Shown here in pieces: positions 4,555 to 46,830 of a DNA stretch of 47,324 nucleotides (positions are counted from its first letter, which is position 1; every line of letters begins with the position of its first letter). Position numbers and translations under genes: made by a program. Source of the DNA: Acidobacteriota bacterium (lineage in GTDB: Bacteria > Acidobacteriota > Vicinamibacteria > Vicinamibacterales > Vicinamibacteraceae); contig JADLFL010000039.1 of assembly GCA_020845575.1 (NCBI GenBank), positions 1 to 47,324 of the forward strand, in the 5' to 3' direction. The notes beneath the pieces were generated by a model. It made no database searches. It saw only the letters and a program-made list of their open reading frames with translations, and was not told the origin of the DNA.

Positions 4555-4671
4555 CGGCAACCGGCAACCGGCAACCGCGCCGGAACCCTGGCTTCGCCTG
4601 GCCGCGTTCACACCACGACGGTAGGGCCGGCTCTCCGAGCCCGGCTACCGGTTGCCGGTTGCCGGTTGCCG
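4555..4671. repeat. miniature element with 23-bp heptamer terminal inverted repeats
   Basis: Three CGGCAAC units (4555-4575) face three GGTTGCC units (4650-4670). The outer ends form a perfect 23-bp inverted repeat, 4555-4577 against 4649-4671. The 71-base core holds an imperfect palindrome, GTAGGG...GGCTAC, at 4621-4648. The element fills most of the gap between the divergent ATP-grasp and epimerase genes. Compare 45505-45630 and 21160-21242. Confidence 0.8.
4621..4648. repeat. GTAGGG-type palindrome in the element core
   Basis: An imperfect hairpin reading GTAGGGCCGGCTC, TCC, GAGCCCGGCTAC. Related palindromes occur at 23908-23938, 40245-40272, 44466-44499 and 45552-45567. Confidence 0.65.
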
Positions 4672-15497: not shown

Positions 15498-17060
15498 TCA
15501 CGAGCCCGTCCGCCAACTCCGGCCGTCTCTCTCCAGCAACTCGTGCGCTTCGTCAGGGCCCCACGTGCCGGCGTCGTATGCGACGGGCGGCGCCTGCCTG
15601 GTCCATGCATCGAGGATGGGCATCACCGCACGCCAGCCGACTTCCGTGCTGTCGGCGCGATGGAACAGCGTCTGATCGCCGGTGAGTGCGTCGTAGAGCA
15701 GCGTCTCGTAGCCGGTCGACGGCGTACGCGCGAACGCATCCTCGTACTTGAAGTCCAACGCCACGGTCTTGAGGTCCACGGCCTGTCCGGGCACCTTCGC
15801 GTCGACGAGCAGCGTGATGCCTTCCTCGGGCTGCACGCGAATCACGAGCACGTTGCAGTGCAGCGCCCGTACGGCCGTCTCGCGAAACATCATGAACGGC
15901 GGCTGCTTGAAGTGCACCGAGATCTCCGTCACACGGCGCGCCAGGCGCTTGCCCGTCCGCAGATAGAACGGCACGCCGGCCCAGCGCCAGTTCTCCACCT
16001 GCAGGCGCATGGCCACGAACGTCTCCGTCGTTGATGCCGGCGACACCCTGGCCTCGTCCAGATAAGCGGAGACGTCACGATCGCCCATGCGTCCGGCCGC
16101 GTACTGCGCGCGCACGACATCACGGTCGACGGTCGCCGGCGTGAGCGGCGCGATCGCCTGCAGCACTTTCAACCGCTCGTCGCGTACCGCATCGGCATCG
16201 AACGAGATCGGCGGTTCCATCGCCGTGAGCGCGAGCAGCATGAACAGGTGGTTCTGCACCATGTCGCGCAGCGCACCAGCCTCGTCGTAGTACCCGCCGC
16301 GCGATCCGATGCCGTCGGACTCGGCCACGGTGATCTGCACCTGATCGACGTAGCGGCGATTCCAGATCGGCTCGAAGATGCTGTTGGCGAACCTGAAGAT
16401 CATCAGGTTCTGGACCGTCTCCTTCCCCAGGTAGTGGTCGATTCTGTAGATCTGCCGCTCGCGCATGACGGCCGAGAGCGCGCGATTGAGGGCGATGGCC
16501 GAGTCGAGATCGCGACCGAACGGCTTCTCCACGATCACGCGACGCCAGCCACCGGCAGCCTCCTCGTCGAGGAGGCCGCCCCGTCCCAACTGCGCGGCGA
16601 TCGGCGCGAACAGCTGCGGTGGCGTGGCGAGATAGAAGAGCGCGTTCGGTGCGATGCCGAACGCGGCCTGCAACGCCGTCAACCGCGCGGCGATGTCGGC
16701 ATACAGGCCCGGTGCGTCAATCTCGCCCACGACCACGTCGATACGCGCGCAAAGCCCCTCGCGCTCGTCATCCGAGAGCGGTCGATCGAGATGCTCGTTC
16801 GCCGCCGAGAGCATCTCGTCGGGCAACGCCGCAGCGGCGTCGGGTTGCCTGATGATGGCGATGAACGCGAAGGCCTCTGGCAGTGAACCCGACCGACGCA
16901 GGTTGACGAGCGCCGGTACGAGCTTGCGACGCGTGAGATCACCGGACGCGCCGAATCCGACAAACACCGCCCCGTCGACTTTCGCCGCTCCTGACTCTCC
17001 GGTGGCCGACTTTCCGGTGCCCGGCGCCCGGTGCCCGGTGCCCGATGGTTCTGTCTTCAC
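15498..17060 (-). CDS. zwf: glucose-6-phosphate dehydrogenase
   Basis: A 520-residue enzyme that oxidises glucose-6-phosphate to the lactone with NADP(+). It has the Rossmann motif VGFGASGDLTRRKLVPAL, the phosphate-binding EKPFGRDL, the active-site YRIDHYLGKETVQNL and C-terminal YETLLYDALTGDQTLFHRAD. The only credible start is a GTG at 17060 that overlaps the pgi stop codon (GTGA), so the two genes are probably translationally coupled. About 25 residues between this GTG and the Rossmann fold are low-complexity (TEPSGTGHRAPGTG...). They are encoded by four heptamer units of an intergenic-type repeat at 17016-17043. This tail is absent from ordinary family members. The frame remains open far upstream into pgi, but that part has no similarity I recognise. 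Confidence 0.94.
   Translation of the reverse strand: MKTEPSGTGHRAPGTGKSATGESGAAKVDGAVFVGFGASGDLTRRKLVPALVNLRRSGSLPEAFAFIAIIRQPDAAAALPDEMLSAANEHLDRPLSDDEREGLCARIDVVVGEIDAPGLYADIAARLTALQAAFGIAPNALFYLATPPQLFAPIAAQLGRGGLLDEEAAGGWRRVIVEKPFGRDLDSAIALNRALSAVMRERQIYRIDHYLGKETVQNLMIFRFANSIFEPIWNRRYVDQVQITVAESDGIGSRGGYYDEAGALRDMVQNHLFMLLALTAMEPPISFDADAVRDERLKVLQAIAPLTPATVDRDVVRAQYAAGRMGDRDVSAYLDEARVSPASTTETFVAMRLQVENWRWAGVPFYLRTGKRLARRVTEISVHFKQPPFMMFRETAVRALHCNVLVIRVQPEEGITLLVDAKVPGQAVDLKTVALDFKYEDAFARTPSTGYETLLYDALTGDQTLFHRADSTEVGWRAVMPILDAWTRQAPPVAYDAGTWGPDEAHELLERDGRSWRTGS
17016..17043. repeat. four in-phase GGTGCCC heptamers inside the zwf 5' end
   Basis: Units GGTGCCC, GGCGCCC, GGTGCCC, GGTGCCC run without a break from 17016 to 17043; a looser GGTGGCC lies at 17001-17007. 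This is a variant of the 7-base unit seen in the GTTGCCG arrays elsewhere. It is translated as part of the zwf N-terminus. Confidence 0.75.
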
Positions 17061-21159: not shown

Positions 21160-21242
21160 CCGGCAACAGGCAACCGGTCAGGCGTAGCTCGCAGCAGGAC
21201 CGCGCGTGTCCGTCGCACCATGGCCTTGTTGCCGGTTGCCGG
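21160..21242. repeat. short heptamer inverted-repeat element upstream of the queD-like gene
   Basis: CCGGCAACAGGCAACCGG at 21160-21177 faces GTTGCCGGTTGCCGG at about 21228-21242, two units on each side around a 50-base core. It starts two bases after the PHP gene stop and ends one base before a TATGAT box. It is a smaller, less perfect version of the elements at 4555-4671 and 45505-45630. Confidence 0.65.
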
Positions 21243-35352: not shown

Positions 35353-38300
35353 GTGAAGGCTGTTCGAACACTCCTGACCGGCGTGCTGGCATCGATGCTG
35401 GCCGTTCTGGTCGTCCTCAGCCCGGCCAACGCCGCGGCTCAAGCGCTGTACGGTACCCTCACCGGTACCGTCGTCGATGACTCGGGTGCCGCCATTCCCG
35501 GCGCCACCGTGACGGTCGTCAATCAGGGCACGGGCCTCGAGGTGAACGCCGTCACCGACGACACCGGCTCGTACGCGATCCGCAACCTCCAGCCCGGTGC
35601 CTACACGGTGAAGGCCTCTCTCCAGGGCTTCAAGGAGTACGTGCAGACCGGGATCCCGGTGTCGCAGGGCGACGTCGTCCGTATCGTGGCGCGTCTGGAA
35701 GTGGGTGCGCTCACCGAGTCGGTGACCGTCACCACGGAGGCGGCCCTTCTCAAGACCGACAAGGCTGACGTGAGCGTCAACCTGCGGCCGGCCGAAGTGG
35801 TCAACCTCCCGCTGAACCAGTACCGCAACTACCAGGCGCTGTTGAACCTGGTGCCCGGCGCGACGCCCACCGGCGTGCAGAACGACCAGACCGACACGCC
35901 CGGTCGCGCGCTGACGACCAACGTCAACGGCACGAACCGCAACAACAACGTGACACGCGTGGACGGCGCGGCCTCCATCAACGTGTGGCTGCCCCATCAC
36001 GCCGGCTACATCGCGCCGGCCGAGACCGTCGAAACGGTGAACGTCTCCACGACGAGCTTCGATGCGTCGCAGGGCATGACGGGTGGCGCCGCGATGTCGG
36101 TGGTCACCAAGTCGGGCACGAACGAACTGAAGGGCTCGGCGTTCTACTTCCGCAACAATTCGAGCTGGAACGCACGCCAGAATTACTTCTCGGCCAACGA
36201 CAACCCGAAGGGCAGCCTCGACATCATGGGCGGCACCGTGGGCGGGCCCATCAAGAAGAACCACCTGTTCTTCTTTGGCGGCTACGAACGCAACCTCGAG
36301 AAGAACAGCAGCATCAGCACGCTCACGGTGCCGACGGCGCGGATGCGTCAGGGCGACTTCAGCGAAGTACTCGCCGTCAACCCGAACTTCAGGTTGTACG
36401 ACCCGGCCACGGGTGACGCCACGGCTGGCACCGGCCGCTCGGAGTTCGCCAACGCCATCGTCCCTGCCAACCGCATCAGCCCGATTTCCCAGGCGATCCA
36501 GGCGTTCTACCCACTGCCCAACGTGCCCGGCACCAACGGCGGGATCCAGAACAACTACGAGGTGGCCCGCTTCCCCGTGGCCGATCGACACAACTACGAC
36601 ATCAAGGTGAACTGGAACCGCAGCGCGCAGAATCAGATCTGGGGCAAGTTCTCGATGATGGACGCCAATGTCGAGTCCACGTTCTTCCTGCCCTTCGAGG
36701 ATGGACTCGTCGGCGACACGAACACGAAGATCTTCTCGTTCGGCCAGACGTACACGCTCACGCCGACCCTCATCTGGGACGCGACGTTCGGCGCCAATCG
36801 CATGGCCCAGAACGTCATCGGCCCGGACTTCGGGACCAACTACGGCCTCGACCAGTTCGGTATCCCCGGCACCAACAGCGCGGGGGCATCGGGTCCGGGT
36901 TCGGCCGATCTGCTGCGCTACTCGGGATTCCCGACGTTCAACACCGGCATGTCGACGCTCGGCAACAGCAACACGTGGACACCGGTGTGGCGTGACGAGG
37001 CCAGCTACACCTTCAGCACGAACGTGACCAAGGTGGCCGGCAAGCACGAGATTCGTGCGGGCTTCGACTTCGTCCGCCTCACGCTCGACCACTGGCAGCC
37101 CGAAGACGCCAACCCGCGCGGCAACCTGGACTTCGGCTCAGCCCTGACCGGCGCGGCCGGCTACTCGGGCAACGCCTGGAACCAGTACGCCGCGTTCCTG
37201 CTCGGTACCTCGAGCGGCTTCAGCAAGAGCATCCAGTACCAGGAGATGACGGCGCGTGAGAACCAGCTCGGGTTCTACATCAACGACCGCTGGCAGGTGA
37301 ACGACAAGCTGACGCTCAACTACGGCCTCCGCTACGAGTACTACCCGCTCATGTCGCGCGATGGACAGGGTCTGGAGTTCCTGGACCTCAATACGTTCAA
37401 CACGGTGCTCGGCGGCGTGGGGAGCAACTCGCAGGACCTCGGCATCAAGGTGAGCAAGACGCTGTTCGCCCCGCGTCTCGGCGCGGCGTATCGCCTCAAC
37501 GACGACACGGTGCTGCGCGCCGGCTTCGGCCGCACGTTCAACCCGATGCCCTGGGCGCGTCCGCTGCGCGGCTTCTACCCGTTCACGATCGCGTACTCGG
37601 CGGCCGGCAACACGGCCTTCACGCCCTACACGACCCTGGCCAACGGCCTGCCGGCGGCCCCGACGCCCGTCGGCATCGAGTCTGGCGTCACGCCACTCCC
37701 GCGCGGCGTCAGCACGCGTTGGGCCGATCCCGACAACGTCGAACGCGGCACGATCGACTCGTGGAACGTGTTTGTCGAGCGTCGCCTGCCCATGGACGTG
37801 GCGCTCGGTGTGGGCTACGTGGGTACCGCCACCAACGACGGCTTCGCCGACGTCAACGTGAACTACGCCGAGAGCGGCGGCAACGCCAACCGCCAGTACT
37901 TTGCGCAGGCCGGCAACGCCACGCTGCGCGAGTGGGGTTCGATCACGAAGGCGCGCTACCACTCGCTGCAGGTGTCGCTGAACCGTCCCTTCAAGAACGG
38001 CCTGCTCCTCAAGGGCGCGTACACGTTCTCGAAGGCGCTCAACGAGACCGACGATGACGGGTGGGCGACGCTGATGTGGAGCCAGCCTTCACAGATCGAT
38101 CGCAACTATGCGCGCGCCGGCTACGACCGTCCGCACATGCTCCAGCTCGGTTTCGTGTACGAACTGCCGTTTGCACGCGAGTCCTCGGGTGTGCTGGCCC
38201 AGGTGATCAAGAACTGGCAGATCAACGGCATCGGCTCCATCGTGTCGGGTGTGCCGTTCACGGTGGCGGGCGACAACAGCCTCCTGAACCAGCAGGCCGG

Positions 38301-38664
38301 CCAGCAGACGGCCAACGTGACCGGCGAACTGTCGGGCGGATTCGGTACGGCCGGCCCGAACGAGACCTGGTACGACGTCACGCAGTTCAGCCAGCCCGGC
38401 AACGCGTGGGGCAACTCGGGCCGGAACACGTTCCGCGGCCCGGCGAACTGGAACCTGGACTTCTCGGTCTTCCGCGCGATTCCCATCAGCCGGTATCGCC
38501 TGGAACTGCGCGCCGAGGCCAGCAACGTGTTCAACCACGCGCAGTGGGGCACGCCCGTGACGGGTATCACGGACCCCAACTTCATGCGCATCCGGTCGTT
38601 CACGTCCGGCAGCCTGGTCCGTTCGCCACGCCGCGTGCAGTTGGGCATCCGGTTCCAGTTCTAA
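35353..38664 (+). CDS. Oar-like TonB-dependent receptor, inverted paralogue A
   Basis: A 1103-residue receptor with signal peptide (TLLTGVLASMLAVLVVL...AAAQ), carboxypeptidase-regulatory domain (GTVVDDSGAAIPGATVTVVN, then LQGFKEYVQTGIPVS), plug (VNLPLNQYRNYQALLNLVPG, MSVVTKSGTNELKGSAFYFR) and a barrel ending in LGIRFQF. The GTG start at 35353 follows GGAGG by 5 bases. It is very close in sequence to the receptor at 40400-43696 along its whole length, including most of the plug (for example TDTPGRALTTNVNGTNRNNN in both). The two genes face each other across an ATPase gene. Two hairpins follow its stop, the second an intrinsic terminator. Substrate unknown; no SusD-like protein is present. Confidence 0.93.
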   Translation: MKAVRTLLTGVLASMLAVLVVLSPANAAAQALYGTLTGTVVDDSGAAIPGATVTVVNQGTGLEVNAVTDDTGSYAIRNLQPGAYTVKASLQGFKEYVQTGIPVSQGDVVRIVARLEVGALTESVTVTTEAALLKTDKADVSVNLRPAEVVNLPLNQYRNYQALLNLVPGATPTGVQNDQTDTPGRALTTNVNGTNRNNNVTRVDGAASINVWLPHHAGYIAPAETVETVNVSTTSFDASQGMTGGAAMSVVTKSGTNELKGSAFYFRNNSSWNARQNYFSANDNPKGSLDIMGGTVGGPIKKNHLFFFGGYERNLEKNSSISTLTVPTARMRQGDFSEVLAVNPNFRLYDPATGDATAGTGRSEFANAIVPANRISPISQAIQAFYPLPNVPGTNGGIQNNYEVARFPVADRHNYDIKVNWNRSAQNQIWGKFSMMDANVESTFFLPFEDGLVGDTNTKIFSFGQTYTLTPTLIWDATFGANRMAQNVIGPDFGTNYGLDQFGIPGTNSAGASGPGSADLLRYSGFPTFNTGMSTLGNSNTWTPVWRDEASYTFSTNVTKVAGKHEIRAGFDFVRLTLDHWQPEDANPRGNLDFGSALTGAAGYSGNAWNQYAAFLLGTSSGFSKSIQYQEMTARENQLGFYINDRWQVNDKLTLNYGLRYEYYPLMSRDGQGLEFLDLNTFNTVLGGVGSNSQDLGIKVSKTLFAPRLGAAYRLNDDTVLRAGFGRTFNPMPWARPLRGFYPFTIAYSAAGNTAFTPYTTLANGLPAAPTPVGIESGVTPLPRGVSTRWADPDNVERGTIDSWNVFVERRLPMDVALGVGYVGTATNDGFADVNVNYAESGGNANRQYFAQAGNATLREWGSITKARYHSLQVSLNRPFKNGLLLKGAYTFSKALNETDDDGWATLMWSQPSQIDRNYARAGYDRPHMLQLGFVYELPFARESSGVLAQVIKNWQINGIGSIVSGVPFTVAGDNSLLNQQAGQQTANVTGELSGGFGTAGPNETWYDVTQFSQPGNAWGNSGRNTFRGPANWNLDFSVFRAIPISRYRLELRAEASNVFNHAQWGTPVTGITDPNFMRIRSFTSGSLVRSPRRVQLGIRFQF

Positions 38665-40399: not shown

Positions 40400-43300
40400 C
40401 TAGAACTGGAAGCGCGCGCCGAGCTGCACACGACGCGGTGGCCGGCCGGGATAGCCGAACGTGCGGATGCGCATGAAGTTGGGGTCCGTGAAGCCGGTGA
40501 CCGGGTTCCCCCACTGCGCGTGGTTGAACACGTTGCTGGCCTCGGCACGGAACTCCACGCGGTAGCGACCGAACGGGAACGTACGGAAGAGCGAGAAGTC
40601 CAGGTTCCAGTTCGCGGGTCCGCGGAACGCGTTGCGGCCCGAGTTGCCCCACGCGTTGCCGGGCTGGCTGAACTGCGTGATGTCGTACCAGCGGTCGTTC
40701 GGACCGGCGGTACCCACGGGCGAGAGCTCGCCCGACACATTAATCGTCTGCAGACCCGCCTGCTGGTTGAGGGCCGCGTTGTCGCCGCCGACCGTGAACG
40801 GCGAACCCGACACGATGGAGCCGATGCCGTTGATCTGCCAGTTCTTGACGATCTGCGCCAGGGCACCAGACGACTCGCGTGCGAACGGGAGTTCGTACAC
40901 GAAGCCGAGCTGGAGGATGTGCGGGCGGTCGTAGCCGGCGCGCGCATAGTTGCGCGAGAGCTGCGACTCCTGGTTCCACGACAGCGTGGCCCAGCCGTCA
41001 TCGTCGGTCTCGTTGAGCGCCTTCGAGAACGTGTAGGCGCCCTTGAGGAGCAACCCGTTCTTGAACGGCCGGTTCAACGCCACCTGCAACGAGTGATACC
41101 GGCCCTTCGTGCGGGCGCCCCACGACAGGACGTTGGCCGTGCCAGCCTGCGTGAAGTACTGGCGGTTGGCGTTGCCGCCGCTCTCGGCCCAGTTCAGGTT
41201 GCGATCCGCGTAGCCGTTGTTGGTGGCGGTGCCCACGTAGCCCACGCCGAGGGCGAGGTCCATCGGGAGGCGACGCTCGATGAAGATGTTCCACGAGTCG
41301 GTCGTGCCGCGATCGACGTTGTTCGGCTCGGCCCAGCGCATGTTGACGCCACGCGGCAGGGGCACGATACCGGTCGACGTGTCGGGCGACGGTGCGGCCG
41401 GCAGGCCGTTCGCGAGTGTCGTGAACGGCAGGTAGGGGACGTTGGTCGAGTTGCTGTACGCGATCGTGTACGGGTACCAGCCGCGCAGCGGCCGCGACCA
41501 CGGCATCGGGTTGAACGTCCGGCCGAAGCCGGCGCGCAGCACCGTGTCGTCGTTGATGCGGTAGGCCGCGCCGATACGCGGGGCGAACAGGCTCTTGCTC
41601 ACGCTGATGCCGTTGTCCTTGGGCACATTGCCGAGCCCACCCATGGACACCGTCCAGGTGTTGAGATCGAGTTGCTCGAGGCCGGCGCTCTCACGCGACA
41701 TGAGCGGGTAGTACTCGTAGCGGAGGCCGTAGTTGAGCGTCAGCTTGTCGTTCACCTGCCAGCGGTCGTTGAGGTACACGCCGAACTGGTTCTCGCGTGC
41801 TGACATCTCCATGAACTGGACGCTCTTGCCGAAGCCACTCACCCGCCCGAGGAGGAATCCGGCGTACGTGTTCCACGCGTTGGACGCGTAGCCCGTCGTG
41901 CCCGTCTGGTTGCCGAAGTCGAACGTACCGCGCGGGTTCTGATCCTCGGGCTGCCAGTGGTTGAGCTGCATGCGGATGTAGTCGAAACCCGCGCGGAACT
42001 CGTGCCGGCCGGCCACCTTCGTCACGTTGGTCGAGAAGGTGTAGCTGGCCTCCTTGCGCCACACCGGCGTCCAGGTGTTGCTGTTGCCGATGCCTTCAAG
42101 ACCGATGTTGAAGCGCGGGAAGCCCGAGTAGCGCAGCGGATCCGACGACCCGGGGCCGCTCGTGCCCGCGCTGTTGGTGCCGGGGATGCCGAATTCGGTG
42201 AGGCCGTAGTTGGTCCCGAAGTCCGGTCCGATCACGTTCTGGTCCATCTTCGAGATACCGAACGTGGCGTCCCAGATGAGCGTCGGCGTGAGCGTGTACG
42301 TCTGGCCGAAGGAGATGACCTGCTGGGTCGTGTCTCCCACCAGACCGGATTCGAAGGGCTGGAAGTAACCTTCCTCGACCTCGGCGTCCATCCGCGAGTA
42401 CTTGCCCCAAAGCTGGTTCTGAGCGCTGCGATTCCAGTTGAACTTCGTGTCGAAGTTGTGGCGGTCGGCCACCGGGAAGCGCGCGACCTCGTAGTTGTTC
42501 TGGAGGCCACCGTTGGTGCCCGGCACGTTGGGCAGTGGGTAGTTGGCCTGGATCTTCTGGGCGATCGGGCTGATCTGGTTCGCCGGAATCTGGTTATTGG
42601 CGTACACCGTGCGGCCGGCACCCGTGACAGGATCCCCCGTGTTCGGGTCGTACAGACGGAACGACGCAATGTTGGCGGCCACTTCGCTGAAGTCGCCCTG
42701 GCGCATCCGCGCCGTCGGTACCGTCAGCGTGTCGATACGGCTGTTCTTCTCGAGGTTGCGCTCGTACCCGCCGAAGAAGAACAGGGCGTTCTTCTTGATC
42801 GGGCCACCCACGGTGGCGCCCATGATGTCGAGGCTGCCCTTCGGGTTCTTGTTGGCCGAGAAGTAGTTCTGGCGCGCATTCCACTTCGAGTCGTTCCGGA
42901 AGTAGAACGCCGAACCCTTCAGTTCGTTGGTGCCCGACTTGGTCACGACCGACACCGCCGCGCCACCGGTCATGCCCTGCGACGCGTCGAAGCTGTTGGT
43001 CGAGATGTTCACCGTCTCGACCGTCTCGGCCGGGGCGATGTACGCCGCGTGGTGCGGCAGCCACACGTTGATGGAGGCAGCACCGTCGATACGCGTCACG
43101 TTGTTGTTGCGGTTCGTGCCGTTGACGTTGGTCGTCAGCGCGCGGCCCGGCGTGTCGGTCTGAGCGTTCTGCACGTTGACCGGTGTGGCACCGGGCACGA
43201 GGTTCATCAGCGCCTGGTAGTTGCGGTACTGGTTCAGCGGGAGGTTGACCACCTCGGCCGGCTTCAGGTTGACGCTCACGTCCGCCTTGTCGGTCTTGAG

Positions 43301-43696
43301 GAGGGCCGCTTCCGTGGTGACGGTCACCGATTCGGTGAGCGCACCCACTTCAAGGCGCGCCACAACGCGAACCGAGTCGTTCTGCGACACCGGAACCCCG
43401 GTCTGCACGTACTCCTTGAAGCCCTGGAGGGAGGCCCTCAGCGTGTAGGTGCCGGGCTGCAGGTTGCGGATCGCGTACGAGCCGGTCTCATCGGTGACGG
43501 CGTTCACCTCGAGGCCCGTGCCCTGGTTGACGACCGTCACGGTGGCGCCGGGAATGGCGGCGCCCGAGTCATCGACGACGGTACCAGCGATGGTGCCGTA
43601 CAGCGCTTGCGCCGACGCACTCGCCGGAACCAGCGCCAGCGCCGCCGCCAACGCGACGGCCAAGCATCTGCCTAGAAGGGTTCGAACAGGGGTCAC
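40400..43696 (-). CDS. Oar-like TonB-dependent receptor, inverted paralogue B
   Basis: A 1098-residue receptor with the same domain order as paralogue A. It has a signal peptide (RCLAVALAAALALVPASASAQ), a regulatory domain starting YGTIAGTVVDDSGAAIPG, a plug containing QYRNYQALMNLVPGATPVNV, and a barrel ending LGARFQF. Differences from A are scattered and mostly conservative, with small gaps around residues 330-380 and in the loops near 600-700. Such long receptors usually have different loops for different ligands; here the loops differ little, so the ligands may be related. The GTG start has GGAGG 6 bases upstream, as paralogue A does. The 299-base divergent promoter region upstream holds a pair of direct repeats, and a strong terminator follows. 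Confidence 0.93.
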   Translation of the reverse strand: MTPVRTLLGRCLAVALAAALALVPASASAQALYGTIAGTVVDDSGAAIPGATVTVVNQGTGLEVNAVTDETGSYAIRNLQPGTYTLRASLQGFKEYVQTGVPVSQNDSVRVVARLEVGALTESVTVTTEAALLKTDKADVSVNLKPAEVVNLPLNQYRNYQALMNLVPGATPVNVQNAQTDTPGRALTTNVNGTNRNNNVTRIDGAASINVWLPHHAAYIAPAETVETVNISTNSFDASQGMTGGAAVSVVTKSGTNELKGSAFYFRNDSKWNARQNYFSANKNPKGSLDIMGATVGGPIKKNALFFFGGYERNLEKNSRIDTLTVPTARMRQGDFSEVAANIASFRLYDPNTGDPVTGAGRTVYANNQIPANQISPIAQKIQANYPLPNVPGTNGGLQNNYEVARFPVADRHNFDTKFNWNRSAQNQLWGKYSRMDAEVEEGYFQPFESGLVGDTTQQVISFGQTYTLTPTLIWDATFGISKMDQNVIGPDFGTNYGLTEFGIPGTNSAGTSGPGSSDPLRYSGFPRFNIGLEGIGNSNTWTPVWRKEASYTFSTNVTKVAGRHEFRAGFDYIRMQLNHWQPEDQNPRGTFDFGNQTGTTGYASNAWNTYAGFLLGRVSGFGKSVQFMEMSARENQFGVYLNDRWQVNDKLTLNYGLRYEYYPLMSRESAGLEQLDLNTWTVSMGGLGNVPKDNGISVSKSLFAPRIGAAYRINDDTVLRAGFGRTFNPMPWSRPLRGWYPYTIAYSNSTNVPYLPFTTLANGLPAAPSPDTSTGIVPLPRGVNMRWAEPNNVDRGTTDSWNIFIERRLPMDLALGVGYVGTATNNGYADRNLNWAESGGNANRQYFTQAGTANVLSWGARTKGRYHSLQVALNRPFKNGLLLKGAYTFSKALNETDDDGWATLSWNQESQLSRNYARAGYDRPHILQLGFVYELPFARESSGALAQIVKNWQINGIGSIVSGSPFTVGGDNAALNQQAGLQTINVSGELSPVGTAGPNDRWYDITQFSQPGNAWGNSGRNAFRGPANWNLDFSLFRTFPFGRYRVEFRAEASNVFNHAQWGNPVTGFTDPNFMRIRTFGYPGRPPRRVQLGARFQF

Positions 43697-44504: not shown

Positions 44505-45485
44505 CTACTGACCGTACGCGGCGCGCAGTTGGGCGATGGCCTTCGGGACGGCGGTTTCGGCCGGGGCCTTGCCTTCGAACTCCAGCGACACGTAGCCACG
44601 ATAGTTCTGCGCGGCGAGGATCGTCGCGATGCGCGCGTTGTCGATGTCGAGTGAGTACCACTCGCCGCCGCCCTCGTAGGCCTTGGCCTGCACGAAGACC
44701 GCCCTGGGCGCGATCGTCTCGAACTGCTCGTACTGGTTCTCGAGGAAGTTGCCCGTGTCGGCCAGCACGCCGAGCCACGGCGAGTTCACCGCGTTGACGA
44801 TGCGCATGAGGCCTTCGGCGGTGCGCGCCAGCCCCCAGTGGTTCTCGAGCGCGAGCAGCACGCCGAGCTTCTCGGCTGTCGGCAGCAGCTTCTCGATCGA
44901 CGAGATGCACCACTCGAAGCCCTGATCTTCGGTCACGCCGGGCAGGATCGGCTCGATACCCTTGTTGGCCATCAGGTCGTCGAACGACCTGGTCGTGTTC
45001 CACCGACCCGTGTTGAGGCGCAGGCACGGGATGCCCATCGCATGCGCGAGTTCCATGCAGTGGACCGTGTGGTCGATGTTCTTCTGGCGCTCCGCGGCGT
45101 CGGGGTACACGAAACCCTGATGGATCGACAGCGCAATGAGGTCGATGCCGTTCACGAACGCGTGCTTCTTCAACCCCTGCAGGTACGCGTTGTCCTCCCC
45201 CTTCATCTGGCGATGAAGGATGTCCACGCCTTCGACGCCGATCGACGCGGCGTGATCGATCACCTTCTCGATCGGATACGGGTCGTCCTGCGGGCGGAAG
45301 TGCCAGTACGAGTACGACGACACGCCGAACTTCACGCGACTGCCGGCCGGTCGCGCGGCAGGAGGAGCCGCAGCCTGCGTCGCAGCCTTGGCGTCGGTGC
45401 TGCCCGTGCCCTGCGTACAGGCGGACACGGCGGGAAGAGCAGCCGCCACGGCGGCGGTGGTCAGGAGATCGCGTCGGGAGAGCAT
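44505..45485 (-). CDS. Tat-exported sugar phosphate isomerase/epimerase-like lipoprotein
   Basis: A 326-residue TIM-barrel protein of the AP endonuclease 2/xylose isomerase-like superfamily. The N-terminus MLSRRDLL has a twin-arginine motif and is followed by AAALPAVSAC with a lipobox Cys at 23, so it is probably a lipoprotein exported folded. The barrel shows FGVSSYSYWHFRPQDDPYP, GVEGVDILH, IDLIALSIHQGF, GIPCLRLNTGRW, LGVLLALENHWG, WLGVLADTGNF and YVSLEFEGKAPAE; the E, D, H and E residues would bind a metal. Many similar secreted proteins occur in planctomycetes and acidobacteria and are linked to sugar catabolism. TAGAAT lies 6 bases upstream of the ATG, preceded by heptamer repeats. Confidence 0.84.
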   Translation of the reverse strand: MLSRRDLLTTAAVAAALPAVSACTQGTGSTDAKAATQAAAPPAARPAGSRVKFGVSSYSYWHFRPQDDPYPIEKVIDHAASIGVEGVDILHRQMKGEDNAYLQGLKKHAFVNGIDLIALSIHQGFVYPDAAERQKNIDHTVHCMELAHAMGIPCLRLNTGRWNTTRSFDDLMANKGIEPILPGVTEDQGFEWCISSIEKLLPTAEKLGVLLALENHWGLARTAEGLMRIVNAVNSPWLGVLADTGNFLENQYEQFETIAPRAVFVQAKAYEGGGEWYSLDIDNARIATILAAQNYRGYVSLEFEGKAPAETAVPKAIAQLRAAYGQ

Positions 45486-45491
45486 GGGGGG

Positions 45492-45497
45492 ATTCTA
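45492..45497 (-). promoter_or_regulatory. candidate -10 box of the isomerase gene
   Basis: TAGAAT, read leftward, then CCCCCC and the ATG at 45485. The same layout, TANAAT plus a C-run plus start codon, occurs at 4678-4691. The left arm of the heptamer element ends 7 bases upstream. Confidence 0.5.
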
Positions 45498-45504
45498 CAA
45501 CTGC

Positions 45505-45630
45505 CCGGCAACCGGCAACGGGCAACCGGCAACCGCTAGGACAGAACGGTTGTAGGGGCGACCCTACGAGACGTGACGTGGAAGTGGTTCCGGTCTACCC
45601 GGTTGCCGGTTGCCCGTTGCCGGTTGCCGG
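45505..45630. repeat. miniature element with perfect 31-bp heptamer terminal inverted repeats
   Basis: The 31 bases 45505-45535 (units CGGCAAC, CGGCAAC, GGGCAAC, CGGCAAC) are the exact reverse complement of 45600-45630, including the odd third unit. The 64-base core contains GTAGGG, GCGA, CCCTAC at 45552-45567. The right arm lies inside the last codons of the cysteine desulfurase gene, and the left arm abuts the isomerase promoter. No target-site duplication is obvious. Confidence 0.9.
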
Positions 45631-46763
45631 ACGACTGTATCGACGCGGGCGATCACGGCGTCGATGTCCGCGGCGCTCGTCGGGCGGCCGACGCTGATGC
45701 GGAGGTTGGTGAGGCCGGGGGCGCGGCCGATGGCGGTGAGGACGTGCGACGCTTCGCCGCTGGCGCTCGTACAGGCCGAGCTCGTCGAGACGCACACCTC
45801 GTCGCCCAGCGCCGCGAGCAGCGCATCCCCCGGGGGGCCGGCGAGACTCACGTTCAGGTTGTTGGGGAGGCGACGCTCGGGTTCCGCGATTGGGTCGGGG
45901 CCATTCAGCAGGATGGCGGGAAACGCGTCTCGGAGCGCGAGCCACAGCCGATCGCGCAGCGCACGCTGTGTCCGGCGATCGGCCTCGAGATCCTCCCTGG
46001 CCAGCACGATGGCTTCCGCGAGACCGACGATGCCGGGCACGTTGAGCGTGCCGCTGCGCAGCCCCCCCTCGTGCCCGCCGCCGTCGAGGAGCGGCGTGAG
46101 TCGACACGGCGTCCGCACGTAGAGCGCGCCCACGCCCTTCGGGCCGTACATCTTGTGCCCGCTCATCGACAGCAGATCCACCTGCATCGCCTGCACGTCC
46201 ACGGGCACCTTGCCGAACGACTGCGTCGCGTCGGTGTGCAGCAGCACGCCGCGCGCGCGGCACAGCGCGCCCAGCGCCGCGATGTCGTGGAGCACGCCGA
46301 TCTCGTTGTTGGCGTGCATCAGCGACACCAGCGCCGTGTCCGGACGCAACGCGGCTTCGACGGCTCCGACCGACAACGTCCCGTCGGCGTCGACAGGCAG
46401 AAACGTGACGTCGTATCCACCGTCGCGCAGGGCCTTGCACGCGTTGAGCACGCACTTGTGCTCGGTGGCCGCCGTGACCACGTGGCGCCCGCCCGGCGCG
46501 CACGCCGTGCCCAGCACGCCCTTGAGCGCCAAGTTGTTCGATTCGGTGGATCCCGACGTGAACACGATCTCCGATGGCGACTCGGCGTTGAGCGCCGCGG
46601 CAATCCGCTGCCTCGCCCGTTCGGTGGCCGCGCGCGCTTCCAGCCCGACGCGATGACTGGTGCTCGCCGGGTTGCCGAACACCTCCATGAAATACGGCGT
46701 CATGGCCGCGAACACGCGGGGGTCGACGGGCGTTGTCGCGTGGTAGTCGAGGTAGATGGGCAC
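45564..46763 (-). CDS. cysteine desulfurase (NifS/IscS type)
   Basis: A 399-residue PLP enzyme that takes sulfur from cysteine as a protein persulfide for iron-sulfur clusters or thiolated tRNA. The order of motifs is standard: IYLDYHATTPVDPRV, TSGSTESNNLALKG, ATEHKCVLNA (His102), LLHTDATQSFGK (Asp178), MSGHKMYGPKG (PLP Lys204) and VSTSSACTSASGE (active Cys331). The length of the C-terminal loop fits the IscS/NifS type. The GTG at 46763 is used because the family begins here. About 21 residues at the end (after VDTVV) are encoded by the inverted-repeat element, with the stop codon in its core. No iscU or similar gene is adjacent. Confidence 0.92.
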   Translation of the reverse strand: MPIYLDYHATTPVDPRVFAAMTPYFMEVFGNPASTSHRVGLEARAATERARQRIAAALNAESPSEIVFTSGSTESNNLALKGVLGTACAPGGRHVVTAATEHKCVLNACKALRDGGYDVTFLPVDADGTLSVGAVEAALRPDTALVSLMHANNEIGVLHDIAALGALCRARGVLLHTDATQSFGKVPVDVQAMQVDLLSMSGHKMYGPKGVGALYVRTPCRLTPLLDGGGHEGGLRSGTLNVPGIVGLAEAIVLAREDLEADRRTQRALRDRLWLALRDAFPAILLNGPDPIAEPERRLPNNLNVSLAGPPGDALLAALGDEVCVSTSSACTSASGEASHVLTAIGRAPGLTNLRISVGRPTSAADIDAVIARVDTVVRQPATGNRQPGRPEPLPRHVS

Positions 46764-46830
46764 GGCAAGTCCGTCTCGGATTGTCCTACACCCGTGAAGG
46801 CACGGCAAAGGCGAAGCGAGACATACGCGG

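Follow-up and report, generated by a model that had tools for sequence, protein, structure and literature searches.

Among described systems, the closest are heptamer repeats found in Xanthomonas and Nostoc, with the units GGGNATC and GGGGA(C/T)T (Rehm et al., 2015; PMC4692102). In the parts of that paper considered here, the GGGNATC repeats are polar with respect to gene edges, prefer four units, form convergent pairs in Xanthomonas and are mostly transcribed; quadruplexes were considered, and 83% of the Xcc repeats share their context in Xac. A polymerase-footprint idea for heptamers is also cited there. The TAACTGA direct repeats (MacGregor, 2015; PMC4679880) are dispersed intergenic heptamers with patchy, strain-specific occurrence. 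As described in the sections considered, the repeat is missing from some matching neighbours, whose gaps are shorter, and in the BOGUAY genome the repeats are mostly forward and directly upstream of start codons (one indirect set versus 169 direct sets). REPs and REPINs, as portrayed in excerpts of two papers (PMC3116915, PMC3733652), form extragenic, species-specific families of palindromes, many of them GTAG- or CGTC-tagged, which are tied to RAYT transposases and occur as singlets or as inverted doublets with short spacers. In the P6b stem of the Nostoc trnL intron, seven-base motifs build both sides of the stem and repeat-unit indels occur; this stem differs from the arrays reported below in being part of a group I intron, a setting that requires base pairing (PMC4476775, in part). 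In the literature collection searched, no paper on heptamers in Acidobacteria was found. For the heptamer repeats in distant bacteria there is no settled explanation of why the unit is seven bases, why it is intergenic and why it is polar.

The window is the whole 47,324-nucleotide stretch of DNA that was analysed. Two facing arms are present at 45505-45630 (Table 1). Re-reading confirmed what had been noticed at this locus: the ends are exact reverse complements over 31 bases, the variant unit GGGCAAC stands third from the outside in each, and they enclose a 64-base core with a GTAGGG/CCCTAC palindrome. From the outside in, each arm reads CGGCAAC, CGGCAAC, GGGCAAC, CGGCAAC. A class-V aminotransferase reading frame, presumably cysteine-desulfurase-like, passes through the right arm and ends within the core palindrome, which contains its stop codon (45564-45566, minus strand). 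The left arm is directly upstream of the TAGAAT box of the TIM-barrel gene; this box, also found in the congener G004, is probably a promoter element of that gene. We saw no direct repeat abutting the 126-base unit (the other pairs were inspected by eye), and no named RNA family was found in the window at gathering scores. At the gap that holds the GGGCACC array, the called genes of two congeners, G001 and G002, overlap by four bases. Elsewhere in the window, two large genes in opposite directions (35353-38664 and 40400-43663), presumably TonB-receptor-like, are 82% identical in DNA sequence, and similar copies are found in the congeners.

Table 1. Heptamer arms and neighbouring features in the window.
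Feature	Position	Strand	Remark
Left heptamer arm	45505..45535	+	Four units of the CGGCAAC type, the third being GGGCAAC; CCGG at outer end
Core, 64 bases	45536..45599	none	
Palindrome GTAGGG-GCGA-CCCTAC	45552..45567	none	Inside core
Right heptamer arm	45600..45630	-	Exact reverse complement of left arm
Class-V aminotransferase reading frame	45564..46808	-	Pfam PF00266
Xylose-isomerase-like TIM-barrel gene	44505..45485	-	Other side of junction
-10-like box TAGAAT of TIM-barrel gene	45492..45497	-	7 bases outside left arm
Second pair, left arm	4555..4575	+	
Second pair, right arm	4651..4671	-	6 bases from TACAAT box
Third pair, degenerate left arm	21161..21174	+	Directly after stop codon
Third pair, right arm	21228..21241	-	1 base from TATGAT box
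Sister-family GGGCACC array	17016..17043	-	In 89-base gap

A two-unit probe (up to 2 mismatches) matched 19 times in the window versus 0.93 expected. In the window's own genome (G000, a 4.57-Mb draft assembly, 95.8% complete), exact search with the degenerate two-unit probe gave 667 matches (354+313) versus 20 (10+10) for the reversed control, and the abundance of CGGCAAC arrays is not due to chance. Two further facing pairs are present in the window, at 4555-4671 and 21161-21241. Facing probes 15-45 bases apart gave 13 matches at 10 loci in G000 and none in 39 relatives. The single probe matched 0 to 8 times in each of four congeners (G001-G004) and 63 times in G029, a less closely related member of the order. 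At L155-L166 of G029 the arrays mix CGGCAAC, CGGTAAC and TGGCAAC, and L166 has a facing array pair without a core (both by eye). One exact 28-base arm pattern had a single match in the named genome collection, from which records very near the window may be missing; the match lies in a betaproteobacterial bin obtained from a lichen and is a run of 12 CGGCAAC units (L154:7253-7336).

Arrays were catalogued in a non-random 812-kb sample (18% of one draft genome), with gene borders from a simple home-made caller. We found 92 arrays of the SGGCANN kind. The CGGCAAC family, with the unit consensus SGGCAAC, accounts for 66 of them and a GGGCACC sister family for 21. One array is present in 43 intergenic regions and a facing pair in eight; facing doublets in the sample lie 31-136 bases apart. 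Only 2.2 regions with both arms were expected, and 2/2000 shuffles reached eight. Four units are the commonest class (27/78 strict arrays; two units in 23, three units in 19), and a few long arrays exist. The end phase was read in 63 of 79 arrays per side, 16 arrays inside clusters being omitted. At the outer end, no more than two bases precede the first full unit in 60/63, where a random phase would be near flat, and the inner end stops at CGG in 37/63 (the window's left arm stops earlier, at CG). The sister family has less sharp ends, with the inner CGG-type end in 3/14. In the 27 four-unit arms the G-initial variant occurs 0, 5, 11 and 5 times by place, a distribution as uneven in 11/5000 permutations. 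The exact 31-base arm is found at 15 or more other places in the genome. The uneven variant places, the preferred ends and the recurring exact arm therefore indicate that arms spread as ordered pieces.

The original prediction held that the two ends share an origin or are kept alike by conversion. Recurrence of the exact arm at so many other places indicates shared ancestry and not conversion. Among 17 distinct pairs, arm likeness within pairs was 0.826 versus 0.830 after re-pairing (279/500 shuffles reach it); unit numbers are equal in seven pairs and the arms identical in two. As there is no extra likeness within pairs, the mirror variant is explained by both arms copying a common form. The locus had also been described as a miniature element, and the 31-base arms do resemble the terminal inverted repeats of a MITE. 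The cores differ from those of a MITE in lacking conservation: best local scores among the 17 cores were as for shuffled cores. Given unrelated cores and mostly solitary arrays, this is not a MITE family, and the window unit is not a classical miniature transposon. In a genome search, 40 of 504 first-look candidates were scored; among the matches listed only one crosses the core (C44:6527-6654, a 72% alignment over the whole arm-core-arm). An origin of single arms as decayed pairs is likewise not supported: in the 38/43 single-arm regions tested, no relics of a second arm were found beyond the reversed controls.

Of the 66 catalogued CGGCAAC arrays, 63 were placed and three, which have no called gene on both sides, were left unplaced. 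Fifty-nine of the 63 are intergenic, and 51 of these 59 point inward, the distance from the 5' side of the CGGCAAC strand to its gene being smaller than that from the 3' side to the gene opposite. Single arrays alone are also polar (36/42, p 2.8e-6; one of the 43 was omitted with both distances nearly equal). The GGGCACC arrays show weaker polarity (12/17). Opposite-strand neighbour arrays within 200 bases are facing in ten cases and back-to-back in none, and CGGCAAC and GGGCACC arrays within 60 bases of each other have the same direction in 11 cases and the opposite direction in none (6 loci). A stop codon is located within 12 nt of the outer end in 19/23 strict arms and of the inner end in 1/35; in the wider catalogue the outer end is near a stop codon in 22/24. 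Start-facing arms close to a gene are on its non-coding strand. A -10-like box is present 0-12 nt outside the outer end in 15/35 start-facing arms tested (of 36), compared with a mean of 2.9 and a maximum of 9 in shuffled flanks and with 0 on the inner side. We rejected the arms as -35 boxes, their distance to the -10-like boxes not being near 17 (by eye). One single arm (G000:C16:99657-99684) is found upstream of the gene for Ku, which matches at C16:99786-100322.

The CGGCAAC arrays share with the GGGNATC repeats, so far as these are described in the parts of PMC4692102 considered, a tandem heptamer organization that is mainly intergenic, the preference for four units, the edge polarity and the convergent pairs. 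The original prediction knew of no named MITE or REP family with heptamer-tandem ends of this kind; a close relative with paired heptamer arrays has been published. In contrast to the GGGNATC repeats as described in those parts, the CGGCAAC unit lacks a GGG tract, the arm ends show a preferred phase, and several other heptamer families coexist and differ between congeners; the unit is SGGCAAC, not GGGNATC or GGGGAYT. The proposal made for the GGGNATC repeats, that they are G-quadruplex elements, is extremely improbable for the arms here. The geometry and the four-unit preference match (PMC4692102, in part), but four GGG or CCC tracts occur in none of 78 arrays, so the present layout cannot be explained by three-layer quadruplexes. 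CGGCAAC, having the same geometry without GGG tracts, separates the layout from three-layer quadruplex formation. The TAACTGA repeats, judged by the same sections of PMC4679880, resemble the CGGCAAC arrays in their dispersal and patchiness and differ from them in the unit and in the forward placement upstream of starts, which was not observed for the CGGCAAC arms.

Single-arm polarity, same-direction stacking, facing pairs, preferred ends, unrelated cores and the lack of target duplication at the window unit are best fitted by the copying of ready-made arms onto DNA 3' ends left free at junctions between genes. We put this forward tentatively, as one possible reading in which the copying step is inferred. 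A broken or gapped junction would offer one or two 3' ends, and an existing arm, as the most abundant template in the cell, could be copied onto each. With extension by copying from a 3' end, the array would read from the gene edge inward. One extended end would give a single arm and two would give a facing pair; the core may be due to gap filling or later insertion, and slippage would then alter the unit number. Ku is present in 5/5 genus genomes; this demonstrates no more than the presence of an end-joining protein and is compatible with end-copying without being specific to it. Several points weigh against end-copying. No enzyme, intermediate or break was seen, and a transposase with a target preference could also account for the outer phase. 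If cores were copied from elsewhere, some should match their source; none of the 17 matched another core, and among the genome matches listed only the 72% alignment given above crosses the window core. The less sharp ends and weaker polarity of the GGGCACC family are also unfavourable, as are the dependence of gene borders on the home-made caller and the G029 L156 array, which seems to read GTTGCC after the stop codon, opposite to the polarity rule (by eye). Two reverse-transcriptase domain matches (PF00078) were found in G000 (L116 and L117, on C67 and C35). In the reading frames of their loci nothing connects either to the arms, and a dedicated reverse transcriptase was discarded as a candidate.

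Nearly as likely as end-copying, and still doubtful, is a REP-like mobile arm: an arm of about 31 bases would be moved as single-stranded DNA by an unrecognised transposase and inserted near gene edges, the pairs being REPIN-like doublets. The mostly fixed arm ends, the ordered dispersal of arms, their presence or absence across species and the spacing of the facing doublets are all consistent with this, and REPs are likewise described in single and paired forms (PMC3116915, PMC3733652, both in part). However, a Y1 transposase (PF01797) had no match in G000, at 95.8% completeness, where 5/14 control genomes match; the RAYT acting in trans that had been suggested for this locus was therefore dropped. 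The arm ends carry neither a GTAG nor a CGTC tag (the GTAG palindrome is in the window core, not in the arms), the spacer is not conserved, and the singles show no sign of decay from pairs. The genome also has many heptamer families with only the period in common.

The same gene pair flanks the window junction in all four congeners. G003 and G004 have a short junction without the 126-base unit, and in both the aminotransferase stop codon seems to overlap the -10-like box (by eye). The whole unit is thus present or absent, in agreement with the original prediction. That prediction had also named, as marks of a plain tandem repeat, single arrays in unrelated surroundings together with gradual tract growth; the former were found (43 regions), and at this junction the whole unit is absent in G003 and G004. 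The joined flanks score 65 in alignment versus 43 for the occupied site in G004, and 49 versus 46, a small gain, in G003. G003 has CGGCAGT at the site. G001 and G002 have other heptamers at the junction, of the CTCAGGT and GTTAGGC types, and GGCCTTS.

On three contigs, 13/23 CGGCAAC junctions have an ortholog in at least one congener. CGGCAAC is found in 0/28 of these orthologous junctions in the four congeners and another heptamer run in 9/28; this is unlike the shared context of most Xcc repeats in Xac (PMC4692102, in part). At 6/19 orthologous junctions without a heptamer run, the gap in the congener exceeds that in G000 (G002 at C44 j10, C44 j29 and C20 j34; G004 at C44 j29; G001 at C44 j48 and C44 j87). 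Insertion into a short gap is therefore not shown everywhere, which counts against end-copying, as does the weak junction re-use by other heptamers in congeners. Fisher p values for such re-use were 0.21 (G001), 0.04 (G002) and 0.58 (G004); with any heptamer run and G000 gaps of at least 60, they were 0.43 (G001) and 0.016 (G002). Same-junction re-use between species is not significant in G001 and G004 and borderline in G002, and a preference for the same junctions across species is uncertain.

Transcribed, the window pair is predicted to fold at -94.1 kcal/mol versus -51.9 kcal/mol in shuffles (z -10); for the two remaining pairs of the window, z is -5.9 and -2.5. These values suit a selected structure, with arms kept for a DNA or RNA role at gene borders, for example by forming a long stem that terminates transcription or protects the ends of transcripts. 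Such a role would agree with arms adjoining stop codons and -10-like boxes, and the published GGGNATC repeats are mostly transcribed (PMC4692102, in part). As an explanation of the family it is unlikely: 43/51 regions have a single array unable to form a stem, congeners lack CGGCAAC at the same junctions, and the units turn over between species. An RNA stem function is possible for the pairs, as judged from the predicted folding, and not for the majority of arms, which are single.

Period seven dominates between genes in this genus. Intergenic period-7 runs in the samples number 97 in G000, 70 in G001, 69 in G002 and 19 in G004; the next best of periods 5-12 give 4, 14, 8 and 2, and period 7 inside genes gives 10, 5, 7 and 1, respectively. 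In G003, no period-7 run was found in the 6.4-kb piece. This dominance would suit in-place slippage of a 7-base seed, with the mirror arm made by fold-back template switching. The few long arrays, the CGGCAGT in G003 and the polymerase-footprint idea (cited in PMC4692102, in part) are in line with it as well. Slippage does not predict the inward polarity of singles, the ordered dispersed arms with their end phase, or a likeness between mirror arms that does not exceed the likeness between unrelated ones. It is improbable and disfavoured as the origin of the arms, and likely as the cause of unit-number changes. The heptamer units differ widely between species, and per-family polarity in the congeners is strong in some families and absent in others (e.g., 9/11 and 3/6). 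A broader proposal, which we consider quite unlikely, is that the genus has a sequence-blind seven-base ruler: an enzyme would add heptamer arrays of almost any sequence, telomerase-like, to DNA 3' ends at junctions. Spacers would be rebuilt in each species from a private heptamer vocabulary, reading inward from genes; the Xanthomonas and Nostoc repeats would come from the same process, with quadruplexes as a side effect. With different heptamers in its species and some readable empty junctions, this one genus makes heptamer origin testable by comparing close strains.

Two other dispersed repeats were noticed in the intergenic regions of G000 (e.g., window 4629-4639). A palindrome around GGCTCTCCGAG is present in 17/395 regions, and a hairpin around CCCTGGCCTCC in 15/395. 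Some of these repeats share intergenic regions with heptamers.
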